Source: Candidatus Poribacteria bacterium
GTDB taxonomy: Bacteria; Poribacteria; WGA-4E; WGA-3G
NCBI GenBank assembly: GCA_022821495.1
Contig: JAJEDN010000054.1
Span: forward strand, 1-64,000
Length of the DNA: 64,000 nt
Direction of reading: 5' to 3'
Below the pieces are notes generated by a model that was not told where the DNA came from, ran no database searches, and saw nothing but the letters and a program-made list of their open reading frames with translations. Every line of letters begins with the position of its first letter. The first letter of the stretch is position 1. The translations under genes and the position numbers were made by a program. Below, one piece after another: positions 5,876-22,802 of the stretch.

Positions 5876-6598
5876 ATGCAAACAGTAAGAAAGATTGGAA
5901 TCCTATTCGCAATTCTGACGCTCTTTGGATGCGGCAAAGATGTGACGCGCGTCTCTATCCCGGTGAAAGTTGAATCTGAAATTGACATCAGCCGGTATTC
6001 CAATTTCGCCGTTCTGCCGTTTGTGCCGGAAAAACAATCGGCACGCAACGAGAAACTCCCTGAAGACATCGGCGGAGAAATCGCTGCAATACTCCGGAGA
6101 GGGTTAGCACGCCAAAAACACTTTGAGGTCGTCAGTACGCAAGAAACAGCAAGACTGCTCACAGGAGAAACCGTCGGAGAAGATTGGCTCACGGATACAA
6201 AACATTTGAGTCAACTTGGAGAGTATTTTGAAGTAAAAGGGATTATCATCGGCAGCTTCCGCTTCTATTCAGATAGCCGTCCAAGACGGTATTATGGCGA
6301 GCGATACTCCGTCCAACGCCAACGCTATGTGATGGATTATCAGGACTATATGCAGAAAACCTATCTGCTCTCACTTAGAGTGATGATTATTGATGTCGAA
6401 ACCGAACAGATTATCTGGGATGAGTCTTACCGGCGGAGCACTGCCGAAGCGCATACCATTGGCTCTTTTATTTTTTCTCAAGCGGGTCCACAGGCAAATA
6501 CAATGCGGGAACTCGGTAAACGGGCAGTATCAGAATTTACGCGTCAAATCTCTCCACACTATGAACAGGAAGATAGGTACTTGGTAAAGTCAAGGTGA
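5876..6598 (+). CDS. lipoprotein, possibly CsgG/LpoB-like
   Basis: The 240-residue protein has a signal peptide with lipobox LFGC (Cys19). The segment NFAVLPFVPEKQ, followed by IAAILRRGLARQKHFEVVS, resembles the start of outer-membrane factors in which a strand with VLPF precedes a helix and an F-x-V-V strand (CsgG, LpoB and GNA1162-type folds). This is a weak fold-level resemblance. A tyrosine/arginine-rich stretch (residues about 140-165) is unusual. It follows the TPR lipoprotein closely, suggesting an envelope assembly role. Its stop codon lies directly against a TnpB-type element end. Confidence 0.65.
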   Translation: MQTVRKIGILFAILTLFGCGKDVTRVSIPVKVESEIDISRYSNFAVLPFVPEKQSARNEKLPEDIGGEIAAILRRGLARQKHFEVVSTQETARLLTGETVGEDWLTDTKHLSQLGEYFEVKGIIIGSFRFYSDSRPRRYYGERYSVQRQRYVMDYQDYMQKTYLLSLRVMIIDVETEQIIWDESYRRSTAEAHTIGSFIFSQAGPQANTMRELGKRAVSEFTRQISPHYEQEDRYLVKSR

Positions 6599-6790
6599 CC
6601 CACTACCTGAAGGTAGGGGCTTGTGCTTCATAACGATTGCGGTTTTCTCAGAGAGTCCACCGTCTTAGTATCGCTCCACAATAGCTGCCAAGCCAGCTAT
6701 GCACCGAAGTGCCTGATCTTATATGACATGTGATTTTTTCAACGGGTGCGGTTTTTACACCTGCTACGCTATACATGCAACGGATACCCA
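6599..6790 (-). mobile_element. solitary TnpB-type right end / omega-RNA-like remnant
   Basis: Read on the minus strand, the segment ends with ATGAAGCACAAGCCC, then CTACCT-TC-AGGTAG and GGG. From memory, this matches right ends of IS1341-type TnpB elements (AAGCCC, hairpin, GGG). Further small stems precede it, including GGCACTTCGGTGC. The minus strand also has about 60 open codons ending at a TGA near 6653, which I cannot identify as TnpB. No tnpB or tnpA is adjacent, so it is a solo end, inserted against the stop codon of the lipoprotein gene. Confidence 0.45.
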
Positions 6791-6851
6791 AAGGCTTTTT
6801 AAAACCGCAAACGAATGTGTAGCCTTATTCTAAAAAACAGAGGTAAAAGGC

Positions 6852-9800
6852 GTGAAAACAAATAAAAATAGCATCCTGTCTCAAAAACACACTGACAATA
6901 CACGACAAATACTGGGTAGATATACGCTTCATATCCTCCTTTTTCTGGGCTTACTGGTGCCGCATATTGGATGGGCGCAGGCTTTTGGAAAAAATAAGAT
7001 TACTGCGCAACGCTTTGATTGGCATATCCACCGAACAGAGCATTTTGATATACATTACTATCCGAGCGAAGCGAAACTGGTGCCTATCATGGCTGCAATC
7101 GCCGAGGAGGCTTACGAACAACACAGCGAGGATTTTGAACATGAACTCCGCGACAGAACACCACTGATCCTTTACAAATCTCATAAAGACTTTCAGGAAA
7201 CCAACATCATCCTCCAAGAACTTCATGAAGGTATCGGTGGTTTCGCTGAACTCTTTAAACACCGCATCGTCATACCATTCACAGGTTCACTTGAAGCGTT
7301 TCGGGAGGTAATTTTTCACGAACTCATTCATATCTTCCAATACGACATCATCTATCAGAAACCGCACGCCCGCATCTACAGCGGCGAATTCCTATATTCA
7401 CCACCCATCTGGTTCATAGAGGGAATGGCAGACTATTTCGCCGAAGATAACGATGCAATCGGAGAGATGGTAGTTCGTGATGCCAGTATGAACAACAACA
7501 TTGTGCCGCTACCCCAACTCCAGAATTTTAATCGACTCAGTTCACCCTTCGTTGGGTATAAGTTGGGGCAATTAGCAGTGGCGTATCTCACGGAAACTTA
7601 TGGACGTGAGAAGATCGCTGAGATTCTGCAAGGATTGCGGCAAAGTCGCACAAAAGACATCGACCGCGTTTTCAAAGACGTACTCGGCGTCGAACTCGAA
7701 GAATTCGATAAGGCGTGGCGACAGACAATGCGGAAACGCTATTGGCCCCTTGTTGTAGACAGGGAATTGCCGGATCTCGTCGCAAAGAATCTTACTGAAG
7801 AGGCACGGTATTCACATAATATTAAGCCGGTCTGGTCACCGAGCGGCGATATTATTGCTTATGTAACAGGCAACGACGGCTTTCTTGAGATTGTCCTGAT
7901 GTCCGCAAAAACAGGTGAACGCATTGAGCGGGTCACCAAACAGTTTTTCCGTGAGAAGTACGAGGAAATTCGGACCGATTTCAGTGGGTTCGGCAGAAGT
8001 CTCGCTTGGGCACCTGATGGCGACAGAATCGCCTTTGTTGCCAAGCATCACGACGCTAACTACCTGCTTGAAGTCAATATCCTGACAGAAGAACTCACGC
8101 AATACTTCAAACTCGATTTCGATAACGTCTCCTCACCAGACTATGACGGCAGCGGTGAACGGATCATTTTTTCAGCACTCAAAGAGGGACAAACAGATCT
8201 CTATATTATTGAACTTCTGACCGGCGAAATTGACAGACTCACTTTCGATCCCTTTAATGATACACACCCTTCATGGCACCCAACAACCGGTAAAATCGTT
8301 TACGCCTCCGAGCGTGGTGGTAAAAATAAAATCGTGTTGATAGACCTTGACCACGGAACAGAACGCGTGTTAACCAGCAGCACCTACAACGCGATCAGTC
8401 CAACATGGAATCCAGACGGAGAATCAATTCTCTTCTGTTCGGACGGACAAAGCATTTATGACATATACAAACTCGAAATTGTAGAGAAAACGGCCGCCGG
8501 AGAAGATGCGGCTACGGAAAGCGAAGTGCTGTCGTTTAAAACGGAAACACAACCTGAAGAACAGCCAAATAACACACCAGAGGAAAAGAGAGTATCGCTG
8601 TTCACCGAAGACGATAGAACAAAAATCACAGACCGAGCGTGGCAAGTTGAACTGACGCGTCTTACCAATATAATGACAGGCTGTTTCAATCCGAGTTTGT
8701 CTCCAAATGGAAAGCAACTACTATTCAGTGCCTATCAGAACGGAAAATACGATGTCTGTATTATGGGGACTTCCAAAACGATTCAAGAAAAAGTTGAGAC
8801 CACAGACCTCGCAGAACCCTCGGCCATTTTGACAGCAGAAGAACCAGAGACTTATCGGATCGCCAAGCGGAAGTACAGCACAAAATCCTCCTTCGCCTTA
8901 GATGCGATCTTTCCCGATTTTACTTTCGGTGCTGACGGGATTCTCAGGAGCTCGGTACAAATCGTCGGCAGCGATATGTTGGGAAACCATCGTATCGGGG
9001 TTAATGTTATGAACCAGTCCAGCTATCTCGCACCAGATTTCATCGCACAATACGGGTTTTTGACCCACCGAACCGATGTTGGCGCAATGATTTACAATTA
9101 TCATGAATATCATATCTTAGGCGGCATCCAGACGAGACGCGGTATCTTACAACGGATTACTGGACTCGGAACATATCTCAATTACCCATTCGACAGATAC
9201 CACCGACTCAATCTTAACTTCTCAATGTACTCACAGCCGTTTTCTTTTAACTACCAAACAAGCCGCCCCTTGGATCCTTATGACGATAGGGGCTTACTCA
9301 CAACAGGTTCTATCGCATTCGTTGGAGATACAACGATGTGGCGAGAGTGGTCTCCATATAACGGTTCACGGTACCGTATTGAACTTGAACAGTCTTTCCC
9401 CGCACTCGGCAGTGAATTGGCACTCACAAACGTCGTCTTTGACGCACGACGTTATTTCGGCCTCGGCAGACGCTCTACCATCGCAGCACGGTTGTTACTT
9501 GGCGGCAGTTTTGGTGATGATAAATCCTATTTCTATCTCGGTGGGATTGACACGATACGGGGTTATGACTATGAAGAGTTGGTCGGCACACGCATCGGCT
9601 TGATCAACTTAGAAGTTCGTATCCCTTTGATAGACGCGCTTCACTTTGGCTGGCCCGTTAGATGGTCGATCGGTGGTATCCGTGGTATTGCTTTCGCTGA
9701 TCTCGGAGGCGCATGGTCAGATTGGCAGTACGGACACGAGAACCGTTTTGATATCTTTGTCCGAGACGAAGAAAAAAACCGAATTCGACTCGATGATGTC

Positions 9801-9935
9801 AAAGCCTCAATTGGGATCGGGATGCGACTGCAACTGGGACTCTTTTCAGTAGATTTCGCTGCGGCGCGCAACACAGATCTCACTCAACTGGAACCGGGTT
9901 TCAAATATCACTTCGGGCTTGGGCAAGCTTTTTAA
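6852..9935 (+). CDS. MA-type metallopeptidase / TolB-like propeller / Omp85-like barrel fusion
   Basis: The 1027-residue protein starts with GTG after AGAGGTAAAAGG and has a signal segment at residues 25-43. Residues about 55-280 form a gluzincin-like peptidase domain with HELIH at 156-160 and a likely third ligand Glu190 in WFIEGMADYF. Residues about 300-650 contain PD40/TolB-like propeller blades (WSPSGDIIAYVT, WAPDGDRIAFVA, WHPTTGKIVYAS, LSPNGKQLLFSA). Residues about 690-1027 look like an outer-membrane barrel, with IRGYDYEELVG near residue 900 as in Omp85/surface antigens. The architecture suggests an outer-membrane-anchored protease or assembly factor. It stands alone. Confidence 0.8.
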   Translation: MKTNKNSILSQKHTDNTRQILGRYTLHILLFLGLLVPHIGWAQAFGKNKITAQRFDWHIHRTEHFDIHYYPSEAKLVPIMAAIAEEAYEQHSEDFEHELRDRTPLILYKSHKDFQETNIILQELHEGIGGFAELFKHRIVIPFTGSLEAFREVIFHELIHIFQYDIIYQKPHARIYSGEFLYSPPIWFIEGMADYFAEDNDAIGEMVVRDASMNNNIVPLPQLQNFNRLSSPFVGYKLGQLAVAYLTETYGREKIAEILQGLRQSRTKDIDRVFKDVLGVELEEFDKAWRQTMRKRYWPLVVDRELPDLVAKNLTEEARYSHNIKPVWSPSGDIIAYVTGNDGFLEIVLMSAKTGERIERVTKQFFREKYEEIRTDFSGFGRSLAWAPDGDRIAFVAKHHDANYLLEVNILTEELTQYFKLDFDNVSSPDYDGSGERIIFSALKEGQTDLYIIELLTGEIDRLTFDPFNDTHPSWHPTTGKIVYASERGGKNKIVLIDLDHGTERVLTSSTYNAISPTWNPDGESILFCSDGQSIYDIYKLEIVEKTAAGEDAATESEVLSFKTETQPEEQPNNTPEEKRVSLFTEDDRTKITDRAWQVELTRLTNIMTGCFNPSLSPNGKQLLFSAYQNGKYDVCIMGTSKTIQEKVETTDLAEPSAILTAEEPETYRIAKRKYSTKSSFALDAIFPDFTFGADGILRSSVQIVGSDMLGNHRIGVNVMNQSSYLAPDFIAQYGFLTHRTDVGAMIYNYHEYHILGGIQTRRGILQRITGLGTYLNYPFDRYHRLNLNFSMYSQPFSFNYQTSRPLDPYDDRGLLTTGSIAFVGDTTMWREWSPYNGSRYRIELEQSFPALGSELALTNVVFDARRYFGLGRRSTIAARLLLGGSFGDDKSYFYLGGIDTIRGYDYEELVGTRIGLINLEVRIPLIDALHFGWPVRWSIGGIRGIAFADLGGAWSDWQYGHENRFDIFVRDEEKNRIRLDDVKASIGIGMRLQLGLFSVDFAAARNTDLTQLEPGFKYHFGLGQAF

Positions 9936-22654: not shown

Positions 22655-22802
22655 AGTTTCAGGTTTGACGTGCCTTTACGTATATCTGAAGAAACGCCCA
22701 AGCAAAAACCCCTCCACTACGTTACGGGCTGCGTTTTCTTTAGATTGTTTTTAAGAAAACTCTTTTCATAGATGGACTCGCAAGTCACGTCCTGATAGAA
22801 GC

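Follow-up and report, generated by a model that had tools for sequence, protein, structure and literature searches.

A truncated, tnpB-less guide-RNA element beside a lipoprotein gene in Candidatus Poribacteria is probably a stranded remnant of a PATE-like family

A sequence that ends like the right end of a tnpB element and lies apart from any tnpB gene can be a relic or a guide that is used in trans, and which of the two applies is the question raised by a locus beside a lipoprotein gene of Candidatus Poribacteria, a sponge-associated group. TnpB itself is a CRISPR-like nuclease. The window, i.e., the whole stretch of 64,000 nucleotides analyzed here, covers positions 1-64000 of contig C56 in a genome of 5.37 Mb and 133 contigs (G000, in the following called the own genome). 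A first-pass annotation had placed a solitary TnpB-type right end on the minus strand of the window at 6599-6790. This segment does lie inside a real feature, the true extent of which, however, is 6589-6798. The parts of the locus, in coordinates of the window, are as follows.

6589..6798, minus strand: 210-bp copy, truncated on the left, of an element of family F1 (tnpB-less, IS200/IS605-type), delimited by similarity to the copies on contigs C5, C45, and C60 and by the empty sites L106 and L109
6598..6679, minus strand: core of a guide-RNA (omega/reRNA) scaffold of the tnpB-associated kind, 82 nt, matched by model R1 with 106.8 bits and covarying in alignment A1
6598..6620, minus strand: terminal hairpin of the right end (helix 4), 99.0% of cells paired, two-sided change in 4 of 9 pairs
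6681..6700, minus strand: upstream scaffold hairpin ATAGCTG-GCTTGG-CAGCTAT, covarying in alignment A3
6589..6597, minus strand: right-end tip CACCTTGAC, which reaches into the 3′ end of the lipoprotein ORF, placed by the ends of the copies on C5, C45, C60, and C41 and by the empty sites L106 and L109
6799..6804, minus strand: TTTTAA target site/TAM, directly 5′ of the element and undivided in the empty site L106
6569..6588, minus strand: would-be guide TTTACCAAGTACCTATCTTC, the sequence directly 3′ of the right end, antisense to the 3′ end of the lipoprotein gene
5876..6598, plus strand: predicted lipoprotein of 240 aa (by eye), last codons and stop changed by the insertion

Comparison of window positions 6595-6850 with the own genome yielded three near-full matches (on C5, C45, and C60, with 92-94% identity) and 19 shorter ones. 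Ten of the latter lie just 3′ of a match to PF07282 (TnpB), six touch a contig end, where any tnpB would be invisible, and three have no such match. Together with a covariation far above both controls, the ten matches behind tnpB bear out the likeness of the minus-strand terminus to a TnpB right end with its omega RNA. Solitary, as the first-pass annotation had called it, the element is not, since the same genome has three further copies of ~400 bp, and at least ten genomes of the genus contain more. Of such a ~400-bp copy, the one in the window retains the right 210 bp, with ~190 bp comprising the left end and the 5′ RNA module missing. The copies on C5, C45, and C60 and the element on C41 all end with ACCTTGAC, and the window copy carries one extra C before ACCTTGAC.

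The insertion site could be read from orthologous loci of relatives. On the minus strand of the empty sites L106 and L109, TTTTAA is directly followed by TTCACC or TTTACC (TTTTAA|TTCACC in L106), whereas in the window the same strand continues from TTTTAA (6799-6804) into AAAGCC..., and the element end CACCTTGAC (6589) then gives way to TTTACCAAGTACC. Measured against these two sites, the window copy sits precisely 3′ of TTTTAA, with no duplication of the target, and its right boundary, set by the empty site, is the same as in the tnpB element on C41. The classical hallmarks of MITEs, terminal inverted repeats and a target-site duplication, were both not seen at 6589-6798. As is typical for palindrome-associated transposable elements (PATEs), the window copy has no coding gene, no terminal inverted repeats, and no target duplication; near-terminal palindromes at both ends, a further mark of such elements, are not present in it, the left one being absent. 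Because of this missing left palindrome the window copy was classified as a remnant.

The scaffold was examined in alignment A1, which comprises 35 right-end scaffolds, namely 21 of F1 (the window copy, 19 full or near-full copies, and L152) and 14 others, of which eight have a tnpB upstream, three lie at contig ends and three are tnpB-less (C105, C90, and L019, the last being part of element L191). In total, A1 thus holds 8 sequences with tnpB upstream, 3 at a contig end and 24 without tnpB, four near-duplicate or cut ends having been dropped. In this alignment 96.7% of the cells pair, compared with 88.2% in shuffles and only 33-58% with slid partners, and two-sided changes occur in 9 of 21 pairs and in 49 cells, neither value being reached by any of 500 shuffles. 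The R1 score of 106.8 bits belongs to a sequence that is itself one of the 35 on which the model was trained. For the upstream hairpin, alignment A3 was used (28 sequences, 21 of them distinct: 20 of F1, 3 with tnpB upstream, 2 at contig ends, and 3 tnpB-less; L137 and L190 had been set aside beforehand owing to an offset stem). Two-sided changes were found in 4 of its 5 pairs, 96.2% of the cells are paired versus 80.9% in shuffles, and the covariation of the hairpin spans F1 and the other scaffold type. Judged by these alignments, the scaffold at 6598-6679 is common, in sequence and in covarying structure, to right ends linked to tnpB, and its covariation may be an inheritance from tnpB ancestors.

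The folding energy is no better than that of shuffled sequences, both for the window RNA (z 0.35) and for the full RNA of L002 (z -0.97), and the structure therefore rests on covariation. The weak folding is also what could be expected from a chance similarity or a plain terminator-like repeat unrelated to TnpB. This reading is already contradicted by the 92-94% identity to three copies, the tnpB-like right end, the covariation, and the clean empty site, and it can practically be dismissed.

A full F1 member, inserted 3′ of TTTAA, measures ~400 bp and consists of a left-end hairpin, a 5′ RNA module of ~100 nt, the scaffold of the TnpB guide RNA and the right end. The own genome contains four F1 copies, the window copy being the truncated one. 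In a DNA search of 60 genomes, own included, matches occurred in 36 genomes and in 2 of 17 genera; with the best 11 candidates at most scored per genome, the F1 copy numbers are to be read as minima. At least ten further genomes (G003, G004, G005, G006, G007, G010, G019, G025, G031, and G032) also have full or near-full copies of F1. The left end reads TTAA|C in 15 of 20 aligned F1 copies, two of the remaining five having no left end, and TTTAA|C in C41. Most full copies bear near-terminal palindromes at both ends (by eye). The left end of the full copies is putative: an empty site was sought for the C45 copy, the flank of which is conserved only to ~105 bp before the element and then obscured by another repeat. 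A composition of two tandem elements (junction TTGAC|AAA) was rejected for the ~400-bp element, as L153, L154, and L155 share the sequence to either side of that junction. Two side observations concern copies in the genus: L152 (G006:C82:26009-28198), a left-truncated F1 copy, lies between two cas1- and cas2-like genes (by eye), and a repeat of ~60 nt (L003:1888-2388, minus strand, query 425-482) has many copies across the genus among the matches listed, including one at window 22675-22730.

A 26-nt pattern taken from the 5′ module occurs in 19 stretches of public genome contigs, all 19 titled Poribacteria, and in viral contigs it gave no match. The module is common to other elements with different ends (L153-L160). 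Among 26 aligned copies, two-sided changes affect 7 of 20 pairs and 18 cells, as in none of 500 shuffles. The underlying structure had been predicted from these aligned copies themselves, and of five measures of covariation one, further pair types, was not above shuffles (14 versus 12.5; 74/500). L137 was not caught by the motif, and L159 was omitted as a near copy of L156. At the 48 loci taken for F1 and kindred elements, 46 of them with the exact module motif and some being one place present in two collections, no tnpB homolog was found (0/48). This suggests, as far as these sequences reach, that tnpB elements lack the 5′ module. If so, the compensatory changes speak for selection on the RNA of the tnpB-less elements. 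Promoters of F1 are weak, with 10 of 12 consensus positions at best in 7 of 20 copies, a value that 2-12 of 100 shuffles equal. For the window copy, a promoter is not above chance (9 of 12 at best, with 58 of 100 shuffles as good).

The absence of tnpB and tnpA from the surroundings, pointed out in the first-pass annotation, was confirmed. The own genome has 24 matches to PF07282 and 5 to PF01797 (Y1 transposase). The window has no tnpB, the sole PF07282 match on this contig being C56:90921-91115, and none of the five Y1 matches is on this contig. A full F1 copy resembles the tnpB element C41:8821-10225 at its left end (91% over 67 nt) and at its right end (85% over 109 nt), so that, going by sequence, full F1 copies have the same two ends as an intact tnpB element in the own genome. 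The C41 element is flanked by GTTTAA|CACTC on the left and CCTTGAC|TAACG on the right. Its TnpB of 370 aa carries the Pfam domains PF07282 and PF01385 and aligns with the 408-aa TnpB of PDB 8bf8/8ex9/8exa, which we take to be that of ISDra2, at an E-value of 3.4e-44, with the RuvC residues D, E, and D kept. These site residues of TnpB are named in the available part of PMC10097598. The first-pass annotation had proposed to search the genome for TnpB genes with a matching scaffold, and would have given up its guide-RNA reading given no expression and no related TnpB element. Related tnpB elements that carry this kind of scaffold, such as that on C41, do exist, so the second half of this condition falls away. 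Among 16 full-length TnpB frames of the genome, a motif search recovered all three RuvC motifs in 13 and did not settle the other three. A clearly nuclease-dead relative of the TldR type was accordingly not seen among these 16 frames, three of which lack a clear motif call.

The neighboring lipoprotein gene has homologs in 55 of the 60 genomes searched, own included, and matches no Pfam family. For 29 of the 54 relatives with a homolog the orthologous locus was fetched and the 3′ end of the gene read. The lipoprotein ends with YLVN* in L106 and L109 and with YLVKSR* in the window, where the stop codon at 6596-6598 comes from the tip of the inserted element. The element had been described as flush with a pre-existing stop codon; in fact its tip (6589-6597) runs into the ORF and the insertion itself supplies the stop. 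It follows that 6588, a position ten bases into the ORF, is the first of the would-be guide. The earlier view of the guide as the antisense 3′ end of the lipoprotein gene thus holds as to its antisense orientation, but its start has to be shifted by these ten bases. Model R1 finds the scaffold once in the window and in none of the 29 orthologous loci examined. At the same intergenic point just after the lipoprotein gene, L107 and L108 hold different, unrelated insertions with apparent direct repeats of the target (both by eye), and this point may be a spot that attracts insertions. On the other side of the element, the gene at window 6852-9935 encodes a single protein in which beta-propeller repeats occur together with a peptidase-MA-like and an Omp85-type domain.

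These data can be set against the reading that the window copy is a working orphan guide, i.e., that its scaffold is transcribed by minus-strand read-through and directs TnpB, or a dead relative of it, in trans to targets such as empty alleles or the lipoprotein gene. The scaffold core is complete, guide and TAM have a geometry that suits the empty alleles of sister genomes, and TnpBs with intact motifs are encoded in the genome. However, the promoter of the window copy does not exceed chance, all 29 orthologous loci examined lack the scaffold, and no TnpB is clearly nuclease-dead. A second target in the own genome is not above chance either, as TTTACCAAGTACCTATCTTC has one further match there, with 3 mismatches, and a reversed control pattern also has one. 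At the occupied locus, the sequence matching the guide is preceded by the right end of the element and not by a TAM, and TnpB should therefore not act on it, following the TAM rule given in the available part of PMC8612924. On these grounds a working orphan guide at this locus is improbable. The window copy has neither the left end needed for movement nor the promoter and 5′ module needed for expression, and is therefore most likely a remnant. Of the two options raised in the first-pass annotation, relic or guide in trans, the relic is thus favored, while a special role at this locus is left unsupported, with 29 of 29 orthologous loci examined lacking the scaffold and no promoter above chance. 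A scaffold match beside a gene should not be taken for a regulator unless orthologous loci have been checked.

Taken together, we consider window positions 6589-6798 to be the right half of a genus-wide, tnpB-less, PATE-like element, the full members of which would be moved and kept in trans, and of which the window copy is a stranded, silent remnant (probability roughly 0.7). The window copy is, accordingly, probably a stranded remnant and not a working regulator.

How the left half was lost can be approached from the left junction, where the TAM lies on one side and, on the other, the retained sequence begins just after an internal TTGAC, the pentamer of the right tip. An excision by TnpA from the true left cleavage site to this cryptic internal right cleavage site would leave exactly the window copy; as the origin of this one copy, such an excision is a guess. 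It is made less convincing by L190, a second TAM-flush copy, where an internal TTGAC is missing from the left junction. The alternative that a ~400-bp insertion lost its left half by ordinary deletion concerns only this last step of the preferred explanation. It finds support in left-truncated copies with other breakpoints (L152, L175, and L184) and in the sequence beside L175, which is another repeat. The breakpoints of the window copy, however, coincide exactly with the TAM junction and with the position directly behind TTGAC (by eye), and the product expected from a short shared ACA is not what is found (by eye). Plain decay is, on balance, less likely than not.

The junction being exactly flush with the TAM could equally be expected if the 210-bp form were a distinct minimal element that moves by itself, with its left end at the start of AAAGCCTTTGGG, and not a truncated copy. 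The 141-nt scaffold-only copy L190, flush with TTCAT, would then be a second case. Against this, the same left end was not seen again in the own genome (best 40 of 55 candidates) or in 59 relatives (best 11 candidates at most per genome), L152, the other short copy of F1, has a different breakpoint, and the left end of the window copy has no convincing near-terminal palindrome (by eye). We regard a self-moving minimal form as quite unlikely and keep to a truncated remnant.

L190 (G000:C36:109194-111469) holds its 141-nt scaffold-only copy at 1944-2084, between the genes for tRNA-Thr(TGT) and tRNA-Tyr(GTA). A TTGACA-17-TATAAT promoter precedes tRNA-Thr, and the would-be guide extends into tRNA-Tyr; the scaffold may be co-transcribed with the tRNA genes. 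Its left side abuts a TAM-like TTCAT, as at the left of C105, C90, and L192. Since the genes for tRNA-Thr and tRNA-Tyr are direct neighbors in all 21 loci read in relatives, the L190 scaffold is a recent insertion and not domesticated, and the idea of a conserved, domesticated scaffold at this place was ruled out on the same ground. L175, considered as a third TAM-flush copy, was rejected, its left neighbor being another repeat.

Scaffolds of this kind extend beyond F1. Model R1 gave 39, 38, 27, 47, 2, and 7 matches in six genomes. For G000, G005, and G010, 94 of 104 matches (E ≤3.5e-7) were kept, ten weaker or unlisted ones and the three other genomes being dropped. No PF07282 match lies within 700 nt upstream of 41 of the 94, among the PF07282 matches listed, which in some cases is explained by a contig end. 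Of these 41 loci, 24 were fetched, including L170, an F1 copy also numbered L141, and none of the 24 has a tnpB within ~2 kb upstream of the scaffold match. Three control loci gave tnpB as expected, the queries including those very proteins. L187 retains ~30 nt of the 3′ end of a tnpB, and L175, L180, L184, L187, and L190 are left-truncated (all by eye).

The 24 fetched loci together with C105 and C90 were scanned for sigma-70 promoters. A consensus of 11-12 of 12 positions with 17-nt spacing is present in 15 of these 26 elements, 319-420 nt before the right end, the equally strong match in L190 (the tRNA-Thr promoter) not being counted; in 14 of the 15 no mononucleotide shuffle out of 100 was as good, and in the remaining one a single shuffle was. 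The grouping of tnpB-less elements into families was done by eye. One such group, F2, is formed by L171, L172, L174, L176-L179, L181, L182, L185, L186, L188, and L189, all tnpB-less; its promoters, matching 11-12 of 12 positions, lie 397-420 nt before the right end, and it has a long RNA body with many inverted repeats. L178 and L181 of G005 are 99.0% identical over 492 nt and have different flanks, so that some tnpB-less elements must have moved recently.

An Rfam scan of the window at the gathering threshold returned one tRNA only. Lax scans of nine loci gave five matches, all below the gathering scores. Two of them are to HgcC, an RNA first described in archaea, and lie on the scaffold part of another tnpB-less family, in L156 (1253-1372; 30.8 bits, E 0.0012) and in L153 (1176-1341; 24.3 bits), with a gathering score of 50; HgcC may be related to TnpB guide RNAs. 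The other three, to AsdA, CRISPR-DR22, and U6, are weaker and outside F1 elements. In eight further loci, lax scans found two tRNAs only, both in L190.

Observed so far are the family, its right end, the insertion site in the window, the covariation of scaffold and 5′ module and the tnpB genes with intact RuvC motifs. How full members might move and persist is drawn by analogy with ISDra2, in which insertion by TnpA takes place 3′ of the TAM and leaves no duplication, ~16 nt of the flank serve as the guide and TnpB is proposed to recut the donor joint (available part of PMC8612924). Full tnpB-less members would be moved by a Y1 transposase (TnpA) supplied in trans; the five Y1 matches of the genome are candidates for it, none of them so far tied to F1 ends. 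Their RNA, with the last ~16-20 nt copied from the right flank, would load a TnpB made elsewhere, and the loaded TnpB would cut empty target sites offering TAM and guide match, upon which the element would be copied back. Intact F1 relatives may thus borrow a TnpB made elsewhere in the genome, and it is plausible, by the same analogy, that several tnpB-less scaffold families of the genus are parasites of TnpB in trans. More tentatively, and with somewhat less than even odds, Poribacteria might harbor several RNA-only transposon families (~400 bp, encoding a guide RNA only, often promoter-driven, and with a family-specific 5′ module) which use the TnpB and TnpA of others to move and home. On this view the window copy and the 141-nt copy would be mere scaffold cassettes that either stayed behind at TAM sites or were inserted there.

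Should the intact relatives act as proposed, RNA-guided homing would not be bound to a gene that encodes the nuclease, and an RNA-only element of 400 bp could exploit TnpB in trans. This would also explain why base pairs are kept up by compensatory changes in elements without any tnpB, and would provide a natural case of guide and nuclease being encoded apart. No description of tnpB-less guide-RNA elements was found in the titles and abstract openings searched, which is not to claim their absence from print.

Several known systems share some of these traits. Stand-alone omegaRNAs of IscB were reportedly described from Ktedonobacter by Altae-Tran and colleagues in 2021; there, too, the guide RNA is encoded apart from the nuclease gene, but the nuclease is an HNH-type IscB and here it would be TnpB. 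IStrons combine IS605-type ends with a group I intron, and the Poribacteria elements likewise join such ends with an additional structured RNA. An Rfam match to a group I intron was obtained neither in the window (gathering threshold) nor in 17 fetched loci (lax threshold). With the omegaRNA or reRNA of the ISDra2 type the elements have in common the position at the right end, the guide taken from the right flank and a TAM that equals the target site at the left flank (available parts of PMC8612924 and PMC10278001). The ISDra2-type RNA arises from the 3′ end of tnpB plus the right end (same sources), whereas the Poribacteria elements have no tnpB. In addition, unlike the ISDra2-type guide RNA, full Poribacteria elements have an independent 5′ RNA module.

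The closest likeness is to PATEs, which are known from Haloquadratum, with a PATE-like copy in Halanaerobium (available parts of PMC3119063 and PMC7290912). Like these, the Poribacteria elements are short, have no transposase gene and carry near-terminal palindromes related to IS605-type ends; both also have no terminal inverted repeats and no target duplication, and mobilization in trans is supposed (PMC3119063; PMC7290912). The available text of the two papers, from 2011 and 2020, treats PATEs as transposase-free, some being degenerate ends of IS605-type transposons, and makes no mention of a guide RNA (PMC3119063; PMC7290912). In contrast to PATEs as described there, the Poribacteria elements keep a guide scaffold with compensatory changes and possess, in addition, 5′ RNA modules that were not encountered near tnpB; consensus promoters are present in many of them. 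The TnpB guide was first described in 2021, after both PATE papers. The parent families of the window copy are a guide-RNA-keeping variant of PATEs, and it is there that the main value of the locus lies.
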